Assembly: GCA_035571835.1 (NCBI GenBank)
Contig: DATNBU010000011.1
Location: 1-64,000, forward strand
Reading direction: 5' to 3'
DNA: 64,000 nt
Source of the DNA: Candidatus Limnocylindrales bacterium
GTDB taxonomy: Bacteria > Desulfobacterota > Binatia > UBA1149 > CAITLU01
The notes beneath the pieces are model-generated. The model was not told the origin of the DNA. It ran no database searches and worked only from the letters and a program-made list of their open reading frames with translations. The position numbers were made by a program, and so were the translations under genes. Below are positions 5,236 through 41,788 of the stretch, piece after piece. How positions within the stretch are numbered: position 1 is the stretch's first letter; every line of letters begins with the position of its first letter.

Positions 5236-6108
5236 TCAGCGTGCGGTTCCGGGGTCACTGCCCCGGAAGTAGCGCAGGAAGTCGCTCTCGGGCGACAGGA
5301 TCATCGACGTGCCGCTCTTGATCGACGTGCGATAGGCCTCGAGCGTGCGCACGAACGCGTAGAAGTCGGTGTCGCGCCCATAGGCGTCGGCGAAGATCTT
5401 CACGGCCTGGGCATCGCCTTCACCTCGGCGGATCTCGGACTGCTTTCTTGCCTCTGCAATCAGGATGGCCACTTCCTTGTCGGAGCCCGAGCGGATCTTG
5501 CGCGCTTCCTCGTCGCCTTCGGCGCGGAACTTCTTCGCGAGCCGCTCGCGTTCGGTGCGCATGCGGCTGAAGACGTTCATCTCGGTTTTCTCGGGAAGAT
5601 CGGCGCGCTTGATGCGCACGTCGACGATCTCGATGCCGAAGTCGTGCGCCCGCTCGTTGGTGATCTGCGTGACTTCCTTCATGAGCTGCTCGCGGCTGGA
5701 GCTGATGATCTCGCTGAAGGTGTGACGGCCGAGATTCTCGCGCACGTTGGAGTAGATGATGTCGTCCAGCCGCGAGGCCGCGCCCTGCTCGTTGCGCACC
5801 GTCCGGTAGAACAGCAGCGGATCGAGGATGCGCCAGCGCGCGTAGTTGTCCACGAGAAGCTGCTGCTTGTCCTTGGTGAGCACCTCGCGCGGCGATGCGT
5901 CGTACTCGAGCAGTCGCCGGTCGAAATACAGAACGCTCTGGACGAACGGCAGCTTGAAGTTGAGCCCGGGCTCGCGAACGGTGCGAACCGGATCGCCGAG
6001 CTGGACAACGACCGCCTGCATCCATTGCTGCACGCGGAAAGCGGCAAGATTCCATGCCGCGATGATGAGGCCGAGCGCGATCAGGAAGGGGAGGGCACGC
6101 CGGTCCAT
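5236..6108 (-). CDS. hflC: protease modulator HflC
   Basis: 290-residue SPFH/band-7 protein. One N-terminal membrane helix (about residues 6-24) is followed by the prohibitin-like domain, including VQLGDPVRTVREPGLNFKLPF, VDNYARWRI, and the helical region with RMRTERERLAKKFRAEGDEEA. The C-terminus ends LSPESDFLRYFRG, closely matching the HflC tail. HflC pairs with HflK in a large periplasmic-facing complex that controls the membrane AAA protease FtsH. The start at 6108 lies 2 bases after the hflK stop, so the pair is translationally coupled; an in-frame extension upstream overlaps hflK and is rejected. Confidence 0.95.
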   Translation of the reverse strand: MDRRALPFLIALGLIIAAWNLAAFRVQQWMQAVVVQLGDPVRTVREPGLNFKLPFVQSVLYFDRRLLEYDASPREVLTKDKQQLLVDNYARWRILDPLLFYRTVRNEQGAASRLDDIIYSNVRENLGRHTFSEIISSSREQLMKEVTQITNERAHDFGIEIVDVRIKRADLPEKTEMNVFSRMRTERERLAKKFRAEGDEEARKIRSGSDKEVAILIAEARKQSEIRRGEGDAQAVKIFADAYGRDTDFYAFVRTLEAYRTSIKSGTSMILSPESDFLRYFRGSDPGTAR

Positions 6109-7679: not shown

Positions 7680-9761
7680 ATGAACATCACGCGGCAAACT
7701 CCGGTTGTGCTGGGACTGTGGATCTTTTCGGTTCTGCGCGCGCAGGCGGCTCCGCCCGTGTTCGAGCCAGCCGTCGTGGTCGACCCGCAGCTCGTCGACG
7801 TAGGCCGATTTGCTCTCGATCATGTCGCGGCCACGACGGGAACGGGGACGTGGGTAGCCGCATGGAGCAACGCCCGCGAGATCGTATTTTCGCGATCGAC
7901 CGATCATGGGCTTTCGTTCTCTCCCGCCGCCATTCTCAACACGGACTTCGCAGACGATCAGGACCCGTGGTTCGATACCTTTTTCGAACAAAGAGATAAC
8001 GCGCCGGCGCTCGCGGCCGATCCGAACGGTCGTTTCATCGCCGTATGGCAGAGGTCAAGCCTTCAAGGCGAACACATCGAAGTCGCGCACTCGGATGATT
8101 CCGGCGCGACGTGGACGCCCCCGGCCATCCTCGTGGACTACGGCGGACGTTCCCCGGGAATCGCAACCGACGGACAGGGGAAGTGGATCATCGTCTGGCC
8201 CGGTCACCACGTGGCTGGCGGGAAATACCAGGAGGTATATTTCACGCGCTCGACGGACGGCGGCAACACGTGGAGCGCTCCGGCGCCGCTGGTCGCGAAC
8301 AGCTCCGGTGGTGCACCGACCGTGCTCGGCACGCGGGTGGTCTGGTCGGGAGGAACCTGGATTGTCGCGTGGTCGAACGGCGACACTTCCGGTGACGTTG
8401 ATTCCGACCTGGTGACCTCGCGCTCGACGGATGGTGGTCTCACATGGTCGGCGCCTTCGCCTGTGGACACCATCGACACCAATCTCGACTTCGGAGCGCA
8501 GCTTGCGGGCGACGGCGCCGGCAACTGGATCGCGGTGTGGGAGGCGAGACTGGCGAACTCGCAGGACGTGCTCGCGGCGCGATCCTCGGACGACGCCGTG
8601 ACGTGGAGCGCGCCCGTTGCACTGAATGCAGATCCGGGAACCGGGTCATCGGTCAATTGGGCCATACACGCAGCCGCCGGAGCGACCGGCGAATTCGTTG
8701 CCGCCTGGACGCGGTACTCAGAAGAAGCGGGCGATCCCTACGGCAACGACGACGCAGACGTTCTGATGAGGAGTACGAGTGACGGCGGCGTGTCGTGGAC
8801 GCCGGAGTTGCCGCTGAACGCAGCCGAGACCGACGGGATCTACGAAGACGAGATTTTTCCTTTCGTTGCTCACGATCCGTCCGGGCACTGGATGGTGTTC
8901 TGGTCATCCGAAGACGATCGTCTCTTGAGCGGTACCAAGGGCGGCTATCTCGATCTGGTCTACGCGCTGGCCGACCATCCCTGCGGCAACGGCGTGACCG
9001 ATCCCGGCGAAGGATGCGATGACGGCCGTCGCGGCGATCTCGACTGCTGCGATCGCACATGCACGTTCAATGCCGATGGTACAGCATGTGCCGCCGATGA
9101 TGACCTCTGCACTCTCGAGCGCTGCGATGGCAGCGGCACCTGTAATCATCTGACCGCGCCGGCAGGAACGCTCTGTACCGCCGACAGCGACGTCTGCACG
9201 TACGACCGTTGCGACGATGCAAGGAACTGCGAACACGTCGCTGAGCCGCGGCCCAGCTGCAAACAACCGTTCGCGCGTGCGTCGAAACTGCAGATCGTCG
9301 ATGGCGCCGATCCCGCCGACCGGTCGTTTCGATGGAAATGGTCACGCGGAGACCTGGCGGATCTTTACGACGTCGGCCAGTCCGTCCAGGACTTCGGCCT
9401 GTGTGTCTTCGATTCGAACGGCCTCATCGCACGCTTCGACGCGCCGGCGGGCCCGAGATGCCTCGAGGACGTCACCGACGACTGCTGGAAGTTTGCCGGC
9501 AACCACAGCTGGAAATATCAGTACCGGAACAAATCCGGCTCACCGACTGGACTGACGAGCCTGGTGCTCAAAGGCAACGATGCATCCAGGTTGGGCATCA
9601 GCCTGTCCGCAAGCGGAGACAATCTGGTGTTGCCTTCGCTGCCGCTCACGAACCTTCCGCTGCGTGTACAGCTCGTCAACGAGATCGGAACGTGCTGGGA
9701 CGCGGTCTATTCGCAGCCAAAGGAGACTACGGACACGAGCTTCAAGGCCTTGAACGATTGA
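7680..9761 (+). CDS. exported BNR/sialidase-like repeat protein with Cys-rich segment and shared C-terminal domain
   Basis: 693 residues. A signal peptide (WIFSVLRAQAA) is followed by BNR-type Asp-box repeats to about residue 420 (SxDxGxTW pattern: STDHGLSF, SDDSGATW, STDGGNTW, STDGGLTW, SSDDAVTW, TSDGGVSW), predicting a beta-propeller. Residues 434-530 are Cys-rich (GNGVTDPGEGCDDG.. CTLERCDGSGTC). Residues about 533-693 form a compact domain (FRWKW, FGLCVFDSNG, CWKF, PSLPLT, CWDAVYS) that recurs at the ends of two other exported proteins in this window. The true start is the ATG at 7680, set by a strong GAAGGAGGAGGG site and the signal peptide. Asp-boxes alone do not prove sialidase activity; a binding or structural surface protein is equally possible. 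First gene of a likely four-gene operon. Confidence 0.82.
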   Translation: MNITRQTPVVLGLWIFSVLRAQAAPPVFEPAVVVDPQLVDVGRFALDHVAATTGTGTWVAAWSNAREIVFSRSTDHGLSFSPAAILNTDFADDQDPWFDTFFEQRDNAPALAADPNGRFIAVWQRSSLQGEHIEVAHSDDSGATWTPPAILVDYGGRSPGIATDGQGKWIIVWPGHHVAGGKYQEVYFTRSTDGGNTWSAPAPLVANSSGGAPTVLGTRVVWSGGTWIVAWSNGDTSGDVDSDLVTSRSTDGGLTWSAPSPVDTIDTNLDFGAQLAGDGAGNWIAVWEARLANSQDVLAARSSDDAVTWSAPVALNADPGTGSSVNWAIHAAAGATGEFVAAWTRYSEEAGDPYGNDDADVLMRSTSDGGVSWTPELPLNAAETDGIYEDEIFPFVAHDPSGHWMVFWSSEDDRLLSGTKGGYLDLVYALADHPCGNGVTDPGEGCDDGRRGDLDCCDRTCTFNADGTACAADDDLCTLERCDGSGTCNHLTAPAGTLCTADSDVCTYDRCDDARNCEHVAEPRPSCKQPFARASKLQIVDGADPADRSFRWKWSRGDLADLYDVGQSVQDFGLCVFDSNGLIARFDAPAGPRCLEDVTDDCWKFAGNHSWKYQYRNKSGSPTGLTSLVLKGNDASRLGISLSASGDNLVLPSLPLTNLPLRVQLVNEIGTCWDAVYSQPKETTDTSFKALND

Positions 9762-9768
9762 GTTGTCG

Positions 9769-11880
9769 ATGCCGCACGTGCAGACCCAGCGGGTTCTTTC
9801 TCTGGCGGCATTGCTCGCACTGCTTGTCGCCGCGCCTTGTTCGCACGCGGGCGGTCCACTCCTCGTCAGCGGCGCGGGACAGCCGCTTACGTGGGCGGCC
9901 GATCCGATCCCGTACAATCCCGACCGCGGAATGCTCGGAAACCTCAGCAATGCCTCCGCCACGTCGCGTATCGCGGACGCGGCGGCGGCATGGACCGCGG
10001 TAACGACGTCATCGATCTCGCTGTCGCAGGCGGCTGCCCTGCCGGTCGACGTCACCGTGTCGAATTACGCTGCCTACCTGCAGGTATGCGGGGATGATCT
10101 CAGTCCGATCGTTTTCGACAGCGATGGAAGGATCACGGACGACCTCTTCGGCGTCGGCGCGAATCAGCATATCATCGGTTTTGCCGGTCCAGCCTGCGGA
10201 ACCTTCGACCCTCCGGTCATCACCGAGGGTTTCTCCGTGTTCAACGGCCGTTTTCTCGACGGCGTGGACGCATCGAACAATCCCGAGCTGACTCCGGACG
10301 AATTCGATGCGGTGCTGCTCCACGAGCTCGGCCACTACGTCGGACTCGATCATTCACAGGTAAATTTCGCCGAGGCGGCCGACGGCGATGCGTCAAACGA
10401 CGACGCGCTTGCAACGATGTTCCCGATTCTCGTCAATGCGACGCAAATGAAGTCGCTTCATCTCGACGACATCGTCGCAGTCTCGTCGCTGTATCCGCAA
10501 AGCTCCTTCACCACCGATTTCGGAACGATCACTGGCCAAGTGTATGAAGGAGACGGGGCGACACCGTTCCAGGGCGCGAATGTCATTGCGCGAAAGGTCG
10601 GCGACCCTCGCATCACGGCCGTCTCGCAAGTCTCGGGCGCTCGATATTTTCCCCAGAACTATGGCGGACCTCCCGACCCGTCGCTGCGCGCGCTCTTCGA
10701 GCTCAAGGGGCTGCCGCCGGGATCGTATACGGTCGAGCTCGAGCCGATTTACGTGAACTTCACCGGCGGCTCGAGCGTCGGGCCCCTCGAAATCCCGGCC
10801 GGACTGCCCGGAGCTGCGGAGTTCTGGAATGGCTCTGATGAATCCGCGTCAAATCCGCCCGACGATCCGACGGTCGCCGAGACCATCGACGTCGTCGCGA
10901 ACAGTGTCACCGAGGGAATCGACTTCGTGCTGAACCAGGGGCCGCCTCCGAGCAACGACGAGTGCGCTGGTGCGATCGAAATCCCGACGACGCCATTTAC
11001 GGACGCGGCAGACGTCACGGGCGCGACGACCGGAGCGTTCGATCCGATTCAGTCGTGCACGGACCTGTTTGGCTCGCAGAACATGAACAGCGTCTGGTAC
11101 CGCTACACGGCGCCCGCCGACGGAGTCCTTCACGTCTCCACCGACGGCAGCAATTATGACACTGCCGTCAGTGCACTGACGGGAATATGCGGAAATCTCG
11201 TGGAAGCCGGATGCGATGACATCAGTGGACCGGGCGTCCTGGCGGATCTCCTGATGGAGGCCGATGCAGGCGTCTCCTATCTGCTGGAGGCGACGGCGCG
11301 CTCGGGCGGCGGACAGCTCAGCATCGCGGTGGATTTCGAGCCCGCTGCGGATTGTCCGTCGGAGCAGCGCACGGGTTGTCGCGCAGCCTCAAACGACAGG
11401 TCCGCGCTGCGGCTTCGCCCGAGTCCCGATCCCCAGAGTCAATCGATGCAATGGAAATGGCTGTCAGGCGACGCAACGGCCGGCGAGCTCGGTGATCCGC
11501 TGCTTTCGACCGGTACCAGTTACGCACTGTGCATCTACGACGGCACCGGTACGCTTGCGCTGCGCGCTCGGGCTCCTGCCGGCGACCGCTGCGGCAGCGG
11601 TCTCGGCGAATGCTGGCAGTCGCGCAACGGTGCGCTGAAGTACAAGGACCGCGAGCGGCTGCCGGACGGACTGGCGAGCGTCGGATTCAAAGCCGGAAGC
11701 GGCGATGCGAAGCTCAAGATCAAAGCGGGCGGCGAGAACCTCGACATGCCGTCGCTCCCCCTGACTGCTCCCGTGACGATCCAGCTCTCGAACAGCGACG
11801 GCGGCTGCTGGGAGTCGTCGTTTTCCGGCTTGGACATCACGCAGAATGACGAGCTCGGTCTTGCCGCGAGGAATCGATGA
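9769..11880 (+). CDS. exported matrixin-like (M10) metalloprotease with shared C-terminal domain
   Basis: 703 residues starting at ATG 9769 (a TTG two codons earlier is possible). Order: signal peptide (LAALLALLVAAPCSHA), protease domain with the zinc motif HELGHYVGLDH (His185, Glu186, His189, His195) and a Met-turn-like TMFPI, a carboxypeptidase-regulatory-like beta domain (GTITGQVYEGDGATPF.. LKGLPPGSYTVEL, about 250-385), a pre-peptidase C-terminal-type domain (SNDECAGAIEIP.. VWYRYTAP, about 400-525), and the ~160-residue C-terminal domain shared with the preceding gene (MQWKWLSGD, YALCIYDGTG, CWQS, KYKDRE, PSLPLT, CWESSFS). A secreted zinc endopeptidase is well supported; substrate unknown. 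Seven bases after the previous stop, and overlapping the next gene by ATGA. Confidence 0.85.
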   Translation: MPHVQTQRVLSLAALLALLVAAPCSHAGGPLLVSGAGQPLTWAADPIPYNPDRGMLGNLSNASATSRIADAAAAWTAVTTSSISLSQAAALPVDVTVSNYAAYLQVCGDDLSPIVFDSDGRITDDLFGVGANQHIIGFAGPACGTFDPPVITEGFSVFNGRFLDGVDASNNPELTPDEFDAVLLHELGHYVGLDHSQVNFAEAADGDASNDDALATMFPILVNATQMKSLHLDDIVAVSSLYPQSSFTTDFGTITGQVYEGDGATPFQGANVIARKVGDPRITAVSQVSGARYFPQNYGGPPDPSLRALFELKGLPPGSYTVELEPIYVNFTGGSSVGPLEIPAGLPGAAEFWNGSDESASNPPDDPTVAETIDVVANSVTEGIDFVLNQGPPPSNDECAGAIEIPTTPFTDAADVTGATTGAFDPIQSCTDLFGSQNMNSVWYRYTAPADGVLHVSTDGSNYDTAVSALTGICGNLVEAGCDDISGPGVLADLLMEADAGVSYLLEATARSGGGQLSIAVDFEPAADCPSEQRTGCRAASNDRSALRLRPSPDPQSQSMQWKWLSGDATAGELGDPLLSTGTSYALCIYDGTGTLALRARAPAGDRCGSGLGECWQSRNGALKYKDRERLPDGLASVGFKAGSGDAKLKIKAGGENLDMPSLPLTAPVTIQLSNSDGGCWESSFSGLDITQNDELGLAARNR

Positions 11881-16685: not shown

Positions 16686-17101
16686 GAGTTCCCCCTTCCG
16701 TGTCGATGAGTCACGGGAAATCGGGAGTTAGCGGGCGGGCACGCATGTGTCGAGTGCGTGGGGAAAGAGCGAAACGAAAAAGACGCCGGCGCCTGCTCAC
16801 GCGCGATCGCGCGCAACTCCGATCCCGATTTGACCGATGTGTCGCCAGCGCCGAACTCGCTCGACAGGCAGAAGCCGTTCGGACGGACGAGCTGCACGAT
16901 CATCTGCGGGAGCCTGTTTGACGAATTGGGTCGGTCCGACCGGGCCAGGAAGCGGAAGTCCGGAGTAATCCTGCGCACGCAACCGCATCGGCAGGAAGAT
17001 CGACCGAGGTTCCTAGTAGCTCGACGATTGCCATCAGCCGCATTGCGGTACTCGCCTGCCAACCGTTCCTGAGTTGCGGCGGCGACTCCCAGTCAATTCT
17101 G
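16686..17101. other. intergenic region without recognisable gene
   Basis: 416 bases between the ends of two leftward transcription units. I find no credible reading frame, RNA gene or strong terminator. It must contain the promoter of the beta-helix/SnoaL-like operon next to 16685. Confidence 0.5.
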
Positions 17102-19298: not shown

Positions 19299-22142
19299 CT
19301 ACGGCGCCTTGTACGATGCAGCGAACTTCGCCGCGCCGTTACTCTTGATCTCGTCCGCCCCGAAGCTCGCCTGCCAGCAGGACGCGTCGCTCGTGCGAAC
19401 CTGCGCGACTACGGTACCTTCGAGGCCGTCGCCGAGCGCAAACGTCGGGATCGTGCTGCCCTTCGCCTTGAGCTGGACCTTTCCGCTGCCCGTGGTGCTC
19501 GACGTGCCGGCAATTCCGCTGATTCCGTCGCCCGGTGCCGGCTTCCGGCGGTCCTTGTATTTGAAGCCCTTGGTCGTCTCGCTCCAGCACGACTCGTCTT
19601 CGCAGGTCGCGTTTCCGGCCAGCGGTTGGAGGAAAATGACGAGGCCATTCGCATCGTACACGCAGAGCTCGTACGCCGTGTCGGTCGTGGGCGAGCCGAG
19701 ATCCTCCTTCGCGAAGCCGGCCTTGCCCCACTTGAACGAGACCGCGCGCTTCCCGGCGTCGTCGGAATTGGCCAGCGAGAGCGTCGCGCCGCCCGGCGCG
19801 TCGTTGTCACAGGTCTGCGGCGTGTCGTCGCTTTCGCAACCGCTTTCCACGTTGCAGTAGTCCCGTGTGCAGAGGGTGCCGTCGTCGCATGCGCTATCGT
19901 CGGCGGTGTGCAGGCAGCGTCCGACACTGTCGCACTCGTCGACGGTGCACCCGACGCCGTCCTCCCAGCATGGAGCCCCGTCGGCTTCGAAGGTGCACGT
20001 CGAAGAGCAGCAGTCTCCATTCGCGACATTCCCGTCGTCGCAGATTTCGCCGTATTCGACGAGGCCATTGCCGCACACCGGGATCCCCGCTTCATAGGCG
20101 CCGAGATCGCAGTGGGCTCCGACCGGCCGCGGGAATCCGCGCTGATCCCGGTCGCCGAGCAGATGGCAAGTGGTATCGTCGCCGGCGTCGATCGCGCTCG
20201 ACGGGACGTTGAGCTTCAGCGTGTATGTCGGGCCGCCGTTGTCATCGGGATCGCCCGCGAGATTCGGGTCACCGCTGAGTGCCGGATTGCAGCTTCCGTC
20301 CTCGATGAGGTTGTGATGGTTCACGGCGAACGCCGTGCTCAAACAATCGGCGTGCAACGAATTGGCGATGATGTTGTTCACGATGCTGAGATTGCCGCCC
20401 GACGCGAGCCGAACCAGTCCAACCGAGTTGTACGAGAGAGTGCTGTTGGTGAGCTCGAGCGATCCGGTGTCGAGAGTGATCGCGCCACCCGTGATCGAGT
20501 TGGAAAAGCTGGCCGAGAACGTGCTGTTCCGGATGCTCGTTGCGCTGTTCGTGCTGTAGACGGCTCCTCCGTCGGAGTCTGCGCCATTTCCCGCGAAATA
20601 GCTGTCGAGGACGGAGAGCGTCGAGGAGCTTACGTAGATCGCACCGCCGGTGCCCGCAACGTTGTTGCTGAACGAGCTGCCTTCTATTGCGAGCGTCGAG
20701 GAGCTGGCGTGGATCACACCGCCGTCGATCGCAACATTGTTGTTGAACGAGCAGCCTTCTATTGCGAGCGTCGCCGAATCGACCATGATCGCGCCGCCGG
20801 CCACCGCGCCGCCTCCCTGAATCTGCAGTCCATTCATCTCGACGGTGCCGCCGTCGATCGAGAAGACCTGGACGGGGACGTTGGTCTCGTCGACGCCGGT
20901 GATCACGACGTACTGGCCTGCGCCGTCTATCGTGAGGGTTTTGTGGATCTGCGGGAGGCTCGATTCGAGTGTAATAAAAGTCGTGTCTGCGAACCTGATG
21001 AGATTCGGTCCAAAGGCGGCGGCGGCGGCGTTCATCGCCTCGCGCAGCGTGCAATGCGCGTCGCAGGTGCCGTCGTCATCGTCCCCACCGGCGGTGACAT
21101 AGAGGATGTTCTGTTCTTCGGTCGCGCCGATGTCGCAGCCGGATCCCACCGGCCGCGTGATGCCGCGCTGATCGACACCGCCTGTGGGACTGGCCAGGCA
21201 GTAGGTTTCGTCGCCGTGGTCGTTCGCGAGGGAGCCGTTCATCGGCGGTGCTGTCTGGGTCGGACCGCCGTAGTTCCCAAGAGGCGAAAGCATGGGATCG
21301 CCGCTGAACGCAGCCGGGCACGATGCATCCTCGATCAAGTTCGAGGTGTTCGTCCCGATGGAGCCGCCGGACTCCAGCTTGCAGTCCGCACCGGTCGATC
21401 CGGCGATGATGGTGTTGACGAGGTCGAGCGGTCCGCGAGTCGCGATGCCGCCTCCAGCTGTCAGAGGCGCCGAATTGGCCATGACTGTGGTGTTGTACAG
21501 TTGCACGCCCGCGGTCACCCGGCCCTGGATTCCTCCGCCGTCGGTTGCTGCCGTGTTTCCGTAGATCGTGCTGTTGACGATCAGTGCGCTCGACGCCACG
21601 TAGATCCCGCCTCCCTGGTCGCCGCTGTTGCCGTTGATCGTGCTGCCGGAGATGGTCGCATACGTGGCGTAGATGCCGCCGCCTGCGGCGGAAGCGTGAC
21701 ATGCGGAGACCGTGCTGTCGTAGAAGAACAGCCGGCCCGTGCTCAGGATACAACCGCCGACGTCGCCGAGACCTTTGGTGAGCGTCACGTGGTCGAGAGT
21801 GAAGTTGATCTCGAAAGCGACGACGAACAGCTGAACGTCTGCGCTGCCGTTTCCGTTGCTGTCGCCGCTCAATGTGACCGGCACGCCGGTACCGTCGATC
21901 GTCAGGTCCTTGTCCACGGTGATGGCGCTGCCGAAACGGATTACTGATCCGGCCAGACCGGCGTCGAAGTCGATCGTGTCGCCCGACGATGCCGATGCGA
22001 TCGTGTCGCGCAGCGATCCGGCGCCGGTGTCATTGCTGTTCATGACGGTGAGCACGGCCGCCTCGGACCAGTCCGGCGTCATCGCCAGCAGACAGAACGC
22101 CAGGACGCACGCAGAGTAGTTTCGAATGTTTCGGATGTTCAT
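19299..22142 (-). CDS. exported beta-helix protein with two CSLREA/choice-of-anchor modules and shared C-terminal domain
   Basis: 947 residues from ATG 22142 (GAGGGAGGGCC site; upstream in-frame sequence is non-coding). After the signal peptide, two tandem modules each begin with a CSLREA-like segment (TGAGSLRDTIASASSGDTIDF; CDAHCTLREAMNAAAAAFG), continue as parallel beta-helix repeats (GGGIYATYATISGSTINGN, SNNVAGTGGAIYVSSSTLSV) and close with the choice-of-anchor Q pattern (NYGGPTQT.. DQRGITRPVGSGCDIGATE; DNGGPTYTL.. DQRGFPRPVGAHCDLGAYE). A Cys-rich repeat (CGNGLVEYGEICDDGN) follows, then about 785-947 the domain shared with two proteins at 7.7-11.9 kb (SFKW, YELCVYDANG, CWSE, KYKDRR, CWQASFG). 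A large surface or secreted protein; ligand unknown. Downstream partner of the 68-residue gene that ends 11 bases before it. Confidence 0.85.
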   Translation of the reverse strand: MNIRNIRNYSACVLAFCLLAMTPDWSEAAVLTVMNSNDTGAGSLRDTIASASSGDTIDFDAGLAGSVIRFGSAITVDKDLTIDGTGVPVTLSGDSNGNGSADVQLFVVAFEINFTLDHVTLTKGLGDVGGCILSTGRLFFYDSTVSACHASAAGGGIYATYATISGSTINGNSGDQGGGIYVASSALIVNSTIYGNTAATDGGGIQGRVTAGVQLYNTTVMANSAPLTAGGGIATRGPLDLVNTIIAGSTGADCKLESGGSIGTNTSNLIEDASCPAAFSGDPMLSPLGNYGGPTQTAPPMNGSLANDHGDETYCLASPTGGVDQRGITRPVGSGCDIGATEEQNILYVTAGGDDDDGTCDAHCTLREAMNAAAAAFGPNLIRFADTTFITLESSLPQIHKTLTIDGAGQYVVITGVDETNVPVQVFSIDGGTVEMNGLQIQGGGAVAGGAIMVDSATLAIEGCSFNNNVAIDGGVIHASSSTLAIEGSSFSNNVAGTGGAIYVSSSTLSVLDSYFAGNGADSDGGAVYSTNSATSIRNSTFSASFSNSITGGAITLDTGSLELTNSTLSYNSVGLVRLASGGNLSIVNNIIANSLHADCLSTAFAVNHHNLIEDGSCNPALSGDPNLAGDPDDNGGPTYTLKLNVPSSAIDAGDDTTCHLLGDRDQRGFPRPVGAHCDLGAYEAGIPVCGNGLVEYGEICDDGNVANGDCCSSTCTFEADGAPCWEDGVGCTVDECDSVGRCLHTADDSACDDGTLCTRDYCNVESGCESDDTPQTCDNDAPGGATLSLANSDDAGKRAVSFKWGKAGFAKEDLGSPTTDTAYELCVYDANGLVIFLQPLAGNATCEDESCWSETTKGFKYKDRRKPAPGDGISGIAGTSSTTGSGKVQLKAKGSTIPTFALGDGLEGTVVAQVRTSDASCWQASFGADEIKSNGAAKFAASYKAP

Positions 22143-39091: not shown

Positions 39092-41788
39092 ATGAGACGA
39101 ATCCTGTCCGCAGTTGCCGGAGGTGTTCTGACGATTGTCCCGGTTACACGAGGCTACGCGCAATACGTCGCCGTTCCGAGCTTTCCCGCGGGATCGCCGA
39201 CGTTCTGCACGTGGCTCCAGGAGATCGATGTCGCGCCGGGCAGCGACGGCGGCTTCACTGTGGTCTGGGGAGAATTCAACAACACGCTCGGATCCTCGAA
39301 CGCGATCGTCACGCATCGCTTCTCTCGCGACGGCGTCGCCGAGGCTCCTCCCGTGCGGATCGATACCAGCGGCTGGGGACTTTACCCGACGATCACCGCG
39401 GACGCGGGAGGCGGTTTCATCGGCGCGTGGATGTACTCGCACGACGGCTCGCCGCGCGCGCTGTACTCGCGACGTTTGAGTGCAGCCGGCGTCGGCGTCG
39501 GTGGTGAAGGTCGCATCGACACGCTGAACACCGGTCCGATGATCGCGCATTCGGTCGCCTATCGCGATGCCGGGCCGGTTTATCTGTGGAAGCAGAACGG
39601 GCTGTTCATCCGCGCGTACGACAACTTCGGAAACGCGTTGTCGTCGGCGATCGCCGTTACGAGCAACTCGCCTTCGTTCGAGACCGGGATCGCAGCGCTC
39701 CCTGGTGGCGGCTTCATCGTGACGTGGAGCAACATGTGGATGACCGAGTGGAGCTGGGCGCGCATCTATAATGCGGATCTTACGCCGGCGACCGCCGAAT
39801 TTTCTGTCGATGTGCCCGGCCTCGTCGACAACGTCATCGCGAGCAGCACCGGTGAAATCACTTTCGTCGGGCACGCGTGGAACGATGGCGGGCCGGCGGG
39901 ATCTCACTCGGAAGCATGGTTCCGCAAATTTTCTTCCAGCGGATCACCGCTCGGCGACAGAGTGATCGCCAGAACCGCGCCCGACGGCTACTACCTCGAA
40001 GTAGACGCCGACTACGATTCGCGCGGCAATCTGCTGCTGGTCTGGACCGAATACGACACGACGAACGAGGTCTTCCTGCCGGCGCGCGCCCGTGCGTACG
40101 ACGCGTCGAATTCTCCGCTTGGCCCCGATTTCATCGTTGCCGACGCACGCGCCGATTCGATCCGTACGGCGGCGCTCAGCGACGGCTGCTTCGCGAACGC
40201 GTGGTACGGAAACGCAAGGGCGTACGCGAACGTCGTGTGCCTGTGCGGCGGCGAGAACAGCTCGTGCGGCGACGGCAACGTGGATGCGCAGTGCGAAGCG
40301 TGCGACGACGGCAACACGACCGACGGCGATGGCTGCGATTCCAACTGTACGTTACCGGCATGCGGCAATGGCGTGGTCTCGCCGGGAGAAGGCTGCGACG
40401 ACGGCAATCGTGCCGACAGCGATGGCTGCGATTCGAACTGCACGCCGACTGCGTGCGGCAACGGCGTGCGTGCCGGCGCTGAGCAGTGCGACGACGGCAA
40501 TCTGGTCGACGACGACGGTTGCGACGCGAACTGCCGTCCAAGCGGTTGCGGCAACGGGACGGCCGGCGCCGGCGAAGCGTGCGACGACGGTGATCAGGCG
40601 AGCGGCGACGGGTGCGATGCCAACTGCACGGTCTCGCGCTGCGGCAACGGAATCGCCGCCGGCGGCGAGGCCTGCGACGACGGAAACGAAACCTCCGGCG
40701 ACGGCTGCGACACCAACTGCACGCTTTCCGCGTGTGGAAACGGCATCGCGGTCGGCGAGGAAGAGTGCGACGACGCGAACCGCACGAGCGGCGACGGCTG
40801 CGACAAGAACTGCCTGATCGAGTTCTGCGGCAACGGCCGCCGCGAAGCGAACGAGCAGTGCGACAGCGGCGGTGCGCCCGAAGGCGAAGACGCCGGATGC
40901 AATCCGGATTGCACGCTGCGCGCCGTGCACGACAGTGTCGTATTCGCGGTCGATCCGATCGAGCTGTCGATCCCCGTCGGAAACTCTCCGTTCCCGTCGA
41001 ACGTCGTCGTGCAGGTTCAGAACGCGGACGTGACTCCCGAGCGCGAGTCGCCCGGACACACGATTCGCCTGACGGCGTCCGACGGGGATTGTCCGCCGGG
41101 AACCGCCGGCCAGCCGGATTTCGATCGCGGCGTGGCGGGCGTGCAGGATACGACCGTAGTCGAGGGAGGCGTGCCGTCGACTGCGATCGCGGAAGTCACG
41201 GTTTCACGCGACGCATTCACGCCGTTCGACCACAAGATCCCGACGCGCTGCACGCTGTGGTTCACAGCCGAGGAAGCGAGCGGCGCATCCGACGATCCGA
41301 CGCCCGACAACAACGTTGCGTCGGTGCATCTCGACGTGACCGACACCGATGACCCCGTGCACTCGGACGAAGACGAGTTCTTCATCGACAGCATGGACCC
41401 GATCACGATCAAGATTCCGAACGGGCAGACCGTCGTCACCAAACAGATCAAGCCGGTCGTGCGCCGGTCGCGCGATCTTCCGGACACCGCCGGCGATCTC
41501 GAGGTGACCGTGAGCGTGAGCGACGGCGACTGCCCGCCGGGGACCGTCGGCTACATCGACTTCGACAAGCGGCTTGCCGGGCATCAGTCGCGGATGATGC
41601 TGCGCCGCGGACGGCGTGCGAAAGGAACGCTCGGCCTCGTCGTTCGCGCGGAGGTGTTCGACAGTCCGAGCGACGAGTCTCCGCGGCGGTGCACGGCGCT
41701 GATCACGGCGAACGGGTATGGAGATTCGGATCCGTCGAACAACACCACGCGGCTGGTGATTGATGTGGTGGATCGGAACGATTTCTAG
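39092..41788 (+). CDS. exported protein with Myxococcus-type Cys-rich repeats and duplicated C-terminal domain
   Basis: 898 residues. A signal peptide (ILSAVAGGVLTIVPVTRGYA) precedes a propeller-like N-terminal region (about 30-385) with repeated GGGFIxxW-type blades. Then seven tandem Cys-rich repeats (about 390-610) of consensus CGNG....GEaCDDGN...GDGCDxNC, the myxo_disulf/DUF4215 type. The last 285 residues are two copies of a ~135-residue domain, each with ASDGDCPPGTxGxxDFD or VSDGDCPPGTVGYIDFD, a Cys in RCT, and a D(D)PTPDNNxAS/DSDPSNNTTRLV ending, an Ig-like pattern. Likely surface or secreted. GAGGGG ribosome site before ATG 39092. Confidence 0.85.
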   Translation: MRRILSAVAGGVLTIVPVTRGYAQYVAVPSFPAGSPTFCTWLQEIDVAPGSDGGFTVVWGEFNNTLGSSNAIVTHRFSRDGVAEAPPVRIDTSGWGLYPTITADAGGGFIGAWMYSHDGSPRALYSRRLSAAGVGVGGEGRIDTLNTGPMIAHSVAYRDAGPVYLWKQNGLFIRAYDNFGNALSSAIAVTSNSPSFETGIAALPGGGFIVTWSNMWMTEWSWARIYNADLTPATAEFSVDVPGLVDNVIASSTGEITFVGHAWNDGGPAGSHSEAWFRKFSSSGSPLGDRVIARTAPDGYYLEVDADYDSRGNLLLVWTEYDTTNEVFLPARARAYDASNSPLGPDFIVADARADSIRTAALSDGCFANAWYGNARAYANVVCLCGGENSSCGDGNVDAQCEACDDGNTTDGDGCDSNCTLPACGNGVVSPGEGCDDGNRADSDGCDSNCTPTACGNGVRAGAEQCDDGNLVDDDGCDANCRPSGCGNGTAGAGEACDDGDQASGDGCDANCTVSRCGNGIAAGGEACDDGNETSGDGCDTNCTLSACGNGIAVGEEECDDANRTSGDGCDKNCLIEFCGNGRREANEQCDSGGAPEGEDAGCNPDCTLRAVHDSVVFAVDPIELSIPVGNSPFPSNVVVQVQNADVTPERESPGHTIRLTASDGDCPPGTAGQPDFDRGVAGVQDTTVVEGGVPSTAIAEVTVSRDAFTPFDHKIPTRCTLWFTAEEASGASDDPTPDNNVASVHLDVTDTDDPVHSDEDEFFIDSMDPITIKIPNGQTVVTKQIKPVVRRSRDLPDTAGDLEVTVSVSDGDCPPGTVGYIDFDKRLAGHQSRMMLRRGRRAKGTLGLVVRAEVFDSPSDESPRRCTALITANGYGDSDPSNNTTRLVIDVVDRNDF

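Follow-up and report, generated by a model that had tools for sequence, protein, structure and literature searches.

The C-terminal domains (CTDs) of type IX secretion system (T9SS) substrates in the Bacteroidota are folded beta-sandwiches that end many unrelated Sec-exported proteins (PMC11285876). They are compact, seven-stranded, Ig-like domains in which the extreme C-terminus is essential. Other lineage-restricted C-terminal tags, which are carried by dozens of surface proteins per genome, are MYXO-CTERM (i.e., the tag associated with myxosortase), PEP-CTERM and GlyGly-CTERM, all of which are short and tripartite, with a motif, a transmembrane helix and a basic cluster. The MYXO-CTERM proteins of the Myxococcota number dozens per genome and reach the cell surface by type II secretion (PMC11980579).

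We noticed that three exported proteins encoded in a stretch of 64,000 nucleotides from Candidatus Limnocylindrales bacterium (contig DATNBU010000011.1, positions 1 to 64,000; hereafter the window) ended in a domain with likenesses to both of these groups. Like the T9SS CTD, this tail is a predicted beta-sandwich found at the end of many unrelated Sec-exported proteins; it differs in its length of about 175 residues, its approximately 12 strands, its two to three probable disulfides and the occurrence of internal copies, and neither a CTD profile of Pfam or NCBIfam matching the tail nor the translocon protein SprA was found. Like the tripartite tags, it is restricted to one lineage within the phylum sampled and occurs dozens of times per genome, but it is globular, and its last element is a beta-strand, with no hydrophobic helix or segment.

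Three Copies of One Domain in the Window

The first copy closes a BNR (Asp-box) propeller protein of 693 amino acids (positions 7680–9761, plus strand; BNR_2, E 2e-11). The ORF listed from 6198 begins too far upstream; both the start used here and the signal peptide MNITRQTPVVLGLWIFSVLRAQA came from a simple scoring script. In the extended alignment its tail occupies positions 9228–9758 (plus strand), flush with the stop codon. The second copy (11353–11877, plus strand), which was the sequence used for structure prediction with AlphaFold, belongs to a matrixin-like metalloprotease of 703 amino acids (9769–11880, plus strand), for which the scoring script also gave a signal peptide and in which the match to Peptidase_M10 (E 6e-5) fell slightly short of the model cut-off, making it a weak matrixin. 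The third copy (19302–19838, minus strand), again flush with the stop codon, belongs to a 947-residue beta-helix protein (19299–22142, minus strand) with a signal peptide and with NosD/choice-of-anchor-Q, CSLREA and Cys-rich repeat domains.

The tails matched each other in BLASTP with E-values of 7e-23 (BNR/matrixin), 6e-19 (matrixin/beta-helix) and 6e-11 (BNR/beta-helix). When a profile was made only from the 49 copies that the source genome has outside the window, it recovered all three (E 2.7e-32, 3e-38 and 1.5e-32 for copies 1, 2 and 3, respectively), whereas reversed and shuffled frames of the window gave no match to it. The three tails are thus one homologous domain at the places where the first-pass annotation had aligned them by shared motifs, and the cargo regions ahead of them, a BNR propeller, a weak matrixin and a NosD/choice-of-anchor-Q beta-helix, differ as wholly as it had proposed. 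The same profile also picked up a weak fragment at positions 16808–16921 on the minus strand (PQMIVQLVRPNGFCLSSEFGAGD...; profile positions 118–154, E 0.009), which covers only the final ~38 residues of the domain, lacks the remainder of a gene and is probably a decayed fourth copy.

Extent, Conserved Residues and Charge

The first-pass annotation, which gave about 155–160 residues, had placed the start of the domain too late, since two more cysteines, located about 25 and 17 residues upstream of that start, are invariant in 113 copies and the added stretch was predicted with pLDDT of 93–98 by AlphaFold. The full domain therefore starts about 25 residues earlier and measures about 175 residues. 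Most of the motifs listed earlier were also recovered, but across the 113 copies only C9, C17, C68, W96 and C160 were strictly invariant (numbering of window positions 11329–11877), and the cysteine pair of the motif PAG..C...CW was present in just 21 of the 52 copies of the source genome. In the same numbering, P57, G47, G55, G114, G135 and Q152 were nearly invariant in the 113 copies, and aromatic residues were well conserved at four positions (i.e., W42, W44, W96 and W161). Conservation is dispersed over the whole fold and is not concentrated at the final residues.

When residues are numbered along the 157-residue core, C42 and C134 were found in 52 of 52 copies of the source genome, while C62 and C69 were both present in 21 and both missing from 31, with no copy having a single one of them. 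Such joint gain or loss is the pattern that a disulfide predicts. The two conserved cysteine pairs and the third, co-varying pair are probably disulfides, which would give each tail two to three of them. The tails also differed from their cargoes in charge: the median net charge per 100 residues was −1.1 for tails compared to −8.7 for cargoes, lysine made up 5.1% of tails and 1.0% of cargoes, and the tail was less acidic than its own cargo in 48 of 49 proteins (Wilcoxon p 1e-14). This contrast could stem from highly acidic cargoes instead of ligand binding.

Predicted Fold and Database Searches

AlphaFold models of copy 2, made from family alignments over 157–183 residues, had a mean pLDDT of 95.5 for the core and 93.8 when the upstream cysteine pair was included, and the predicted fold was all-beta with about 12 strands. 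Foldseek found nothing in the PDB at E < 0.01 (best E 0.02–0.07). The best match of a structural aligner was Epstein-Barr gp350 (Z 6.2, 4.1 Å over 116 residues), FlaF followed with Z 5.1 (3.6 Å over 99 residues), and comparisons with FlaF/archaellin-like beta-sandwiches in general gave Z of 4–5 over about 95–130 residues. The FlaF/FlaG proteins of the archaellum, the beta-sandwich domains of archaellins and gp350 are thus the nearest structural likenesses of the modelled tail, in fold only, and with identities of 10–16%, scores below the level of a relationship and no functional link. The scores of the predicted model are within the range for common beta-sandwich arrangements, and we do not claim a new fold.

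Searches of all 52 tails of the source genome against Pfam and NCBIfam gave no family match, merely scattered single weak hits, and no match was found among PHROGs or PDB sequences. Profiles of carbohydrate-binding modules (CBMs) matched no tail, plasmids and viral contigs contained no relatives of it, and a literature search turned up no account of a domain of this kind. The tail, which the first-pass annotation did not recognise as a named domain, is indeed unnamed in Pfam, NCBIfam, PHROGs and PDB sequences. Because the annotation profile libraries have no model for it, it is left unlabelled in all the proteins that carry it.

Copy Number, Placement and Cargo

The source genome (5.46 Mb, 98% complete) contained about 52 clear copies of the tail, and a looser profile search gave 62 matches. 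In 48 of the 52 copies the domain was followed by at most 6 residues and in 51 by at most 27, the remaining one being internal. In other genomes, the end lay no more than 12 residues past the tail in 58 of 63 assessable copies. No protein with two tails was found among the copies of the source genome or those of other genomes. A heuristic scoring script, used instead of SignalP, assigned a Sec-type signal peptide to 46 of 48 complete tail proteins. Exceptions to the C-terminal position include three CBM96-containing proteins (L070, L108 and L109), in which the tail lies mid-protein between long Thr/Pro-rich TPTPT linkers and is followed by a second Cys-rich domain, and one protein in which the order is signal peptide, tail and a CGGCH-containing domain. 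The C-terminal position is therefore strongly preferred, not obligatory. These internal and N-terminal copies, attached through Thr/Pro-rich linkers, show that the tail needs no free C-terminus and, though rare, argue against a signal that requires one.

The 52 tail proteins matched 42 Pfam families, and their cargoes included metalloproteases, trypsin, lysyl oxidase, penicillin amidase, phosphodiesterase, RCC1 repeats, beta-propellers and beta-helices. The Cys-rich repeat TIGR02232 occurred in 18 of them, and in many cargoes Cys-rich repeats lay just upstream of the tail. By similarity, the cargo regions formed 14–21 clusters, the large ones being partly linked through TIGR02232 repeats, and in 23 of 51 proteins the nearest other tail was attached to an unrelated cargo. 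With about 52 copies on at least 14–21 types of cargo, the tail is portable, as the first-pass annotation had proposed from three proteins when it suggested a sorting, anchoring or carbohydrate-binding module. Its expectation, that one fold would recur at the C-terminal ends of many signal-peptide proteins of the same clade, was borne out, the fold being that of a single representative modelled from family alignments rather than of each of the three tails.

A Second Tail Family

Weak matches led to a second C-terminal domain of about 160 residues, examples of which are encoded at L018 (positions 5476–5973, minus strand), L014 (6944–7420, minus strand), L182 (1652–2143, plus strand) and L185–L196. 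It has the pattern CVNP..C...GI ... W.YxD..G...GI.K...DRS..DG ... ECA ... C.G.A..L.CR, is flush with the protein end in 13 of 13 cases and is attached to a GH8 glycoside hydrolase, a phosphoesterase and other exported proteins. When nine copies that the first-family profile had not picked were made into a profile, hhalign aligned it with the first family at a probability of 96% (E 1.6e-9) across 112 collinear columns, which indicates at the sequence level that the two families are distantly related. The second tail was found in 37 of 58 relatives, counting loose matches of which some are first-family copies. It was missing from the families that also lack the first tail and was present in the same 5 of 198 genomes of the phylum sample, so that the distributions of the two families are almost identical.

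Distribution Among Genomes

All 5 of the 198 genomes of the phylum sample in which the first tail was found are from the class of the source genome, suspected to be Binatia, and within this sample the tails are confined to that class, in which 54 of 148 genomes had them. In the genomes that were listed, tails were lacking from families f5, f6, f12 and f14, and f7 had only one match. Outside the phylum, no match was found in Pfam, NCBIfam, PHROGs, PDB, plasmid or viral sequences, and the public genome collection was covered by one scan of low sensitivity, made with a tight subgroup of tails, which returned one named locus. JACRCR01, a groundwater genome deposited as 'Deltaproteobacteria bacterium', belongs to the same family as the source genome.

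Candidate Export Routes

The type IX translocon protein SprA (TIGR04189) was not found above the cut-off in 58 genomes or in the source genome, in a search in which the control genomes also gave no match. A MYXO-CTERM profile likewise had no match in the source genome or in its controls. Clustering of the genes adjoining tail genes revealed no recurrent partner or machinery gene. The type II secretin GspD was present in nearly all genomes searched, and a GspD-type secretin was matched in all sampled tail-bearing genomes, weakly in a few incomplete ones. The source genome has two divergent full-length GspD secretins (L134 and L135; contig C39, 34900–37250 and 169900–172400). A GspD tree across the class, for which frames were chosen by similarity, had two clades with differing distributions, one of which was represented in each of the 15 tail-bearing genomes sampled and in 7 of the 13 without tails (Fisher p 0.005, which ignores kinship). 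Few independent families underlie this association, and the clade also occurs in four f12 genomes that lack tails. The GspD data permit export of the tail proteins by a type II system, short of proof. The type II export of MYXO-CTERM proteins is a helpful parallel when considering how a system of this kind could operate.

Possible Function of the Tail

The reading that we prefer, and that we think has about an even chance of being right, is that the tail is a portable surface-docking module by which Sec-exported proteins are retained through a shared ligand of the envelope. It is based on the homology of the tails, the signal peptides, the C-terminal placement, the correlated cysteines, the charge contrast and the restriction to one class. 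The tail would be a self-contained, disulfide-stapled beta-sandwich about 175 residues long, nearly always appended to the C-terminal end of its cargo. The signal peptide would direct export through Sec, and the tail would fold and oxidise in the periplasm, after which the folded protein would traverse the outer membrane, with the type II system as the most probable route. At the surface the tail would hold the protein through one common, probably anionic, partner in the envelope, for which a polysaccharide or an outer-membrane component is a candidate.

The main rival to docking is a C-terminal secretion signal recognised by a dedicated translocon of the outer membrane, which might also cleave it, much as in type IX secretion though with different machinery. 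The strong C-terminal bias, with proteins that end at or right after the last strand, and the tens of unrelated cargoes per genome are what such a signal would produce, and folded beta-sandwich signals are known from type IX secretion (PMC11285876). We nevertheless regard it as somewhat doubtful, as several internal copies and one N-terminal copy, together with conservation that extends across the fold instead of being focused on the last residues, weigh against it, as do the lack of SprA in the 58 genomes searched and of a recurrent machinery gene adjoining the tail genes. The tail might instead be a CBM that steers exported proteins to polymers of the environment and not to the producing cell. 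An all-beta module with four well-conserved aromatic residues, found next to a CBM96 domain in one family, would suit this role, but it is unlikely given that carbohydrate enzymes are a minority among the cargoes and that no CBM family was matched; a domain common to proteases, RCC1 repeats, lysyl oxidase and propellers is better explained by a shared destination than by a shared substrate. Least probable, in our opinion, is a disulfide-locked cap that shields the C-terminus from proteolysis or aids folding and has no role in targeting. The extra disulfides, the Cys-rich repeats right upstream in many cargoes and the lack of a partner gene are consistent with a cap, which would, however, be attached to many unrelated and intrinsically stable cargo folds, would occur internally and at an N-terminus, and would leave the charge contrast unexplained.

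Under the docking reading or that of a translocon signal, the tail points to a destination or route common to a large share of the exported proteome of the class, and it can serve as a marker for predicting surface-displayed proteins. The questions that it raises are what its ligand is and which exporter the tail proteins use. A lineage-wide system of protein display may have gone unrecorded in the lineage of this uncultured bacterium. It is doubtful, though conceivable, that the related tail families, two or more in number and carried by some 70 proteins per genome, represent an unrecorded lineage-specific system of secretion and surface display with a dedicated receptor or translocon unlike those of known secretion and sortase systems.

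Other Observations

The BNR and matrixin-like genes of the window (7680–11880) have a paralogous counterpart on another contig of the source genome (L011; contig C13, 1153–5892), where adjoining BNR and matrixin-like genes also carry tails, and the two pairs constitute a duplicated two-gene block. The window also encodes, at positions 39092–41788 on the plus strand, an exported protein of 898 amino acids with several DUF4215 Cys-rich repeats, which has no tail and ends in two similar repeats of about 90 residues.
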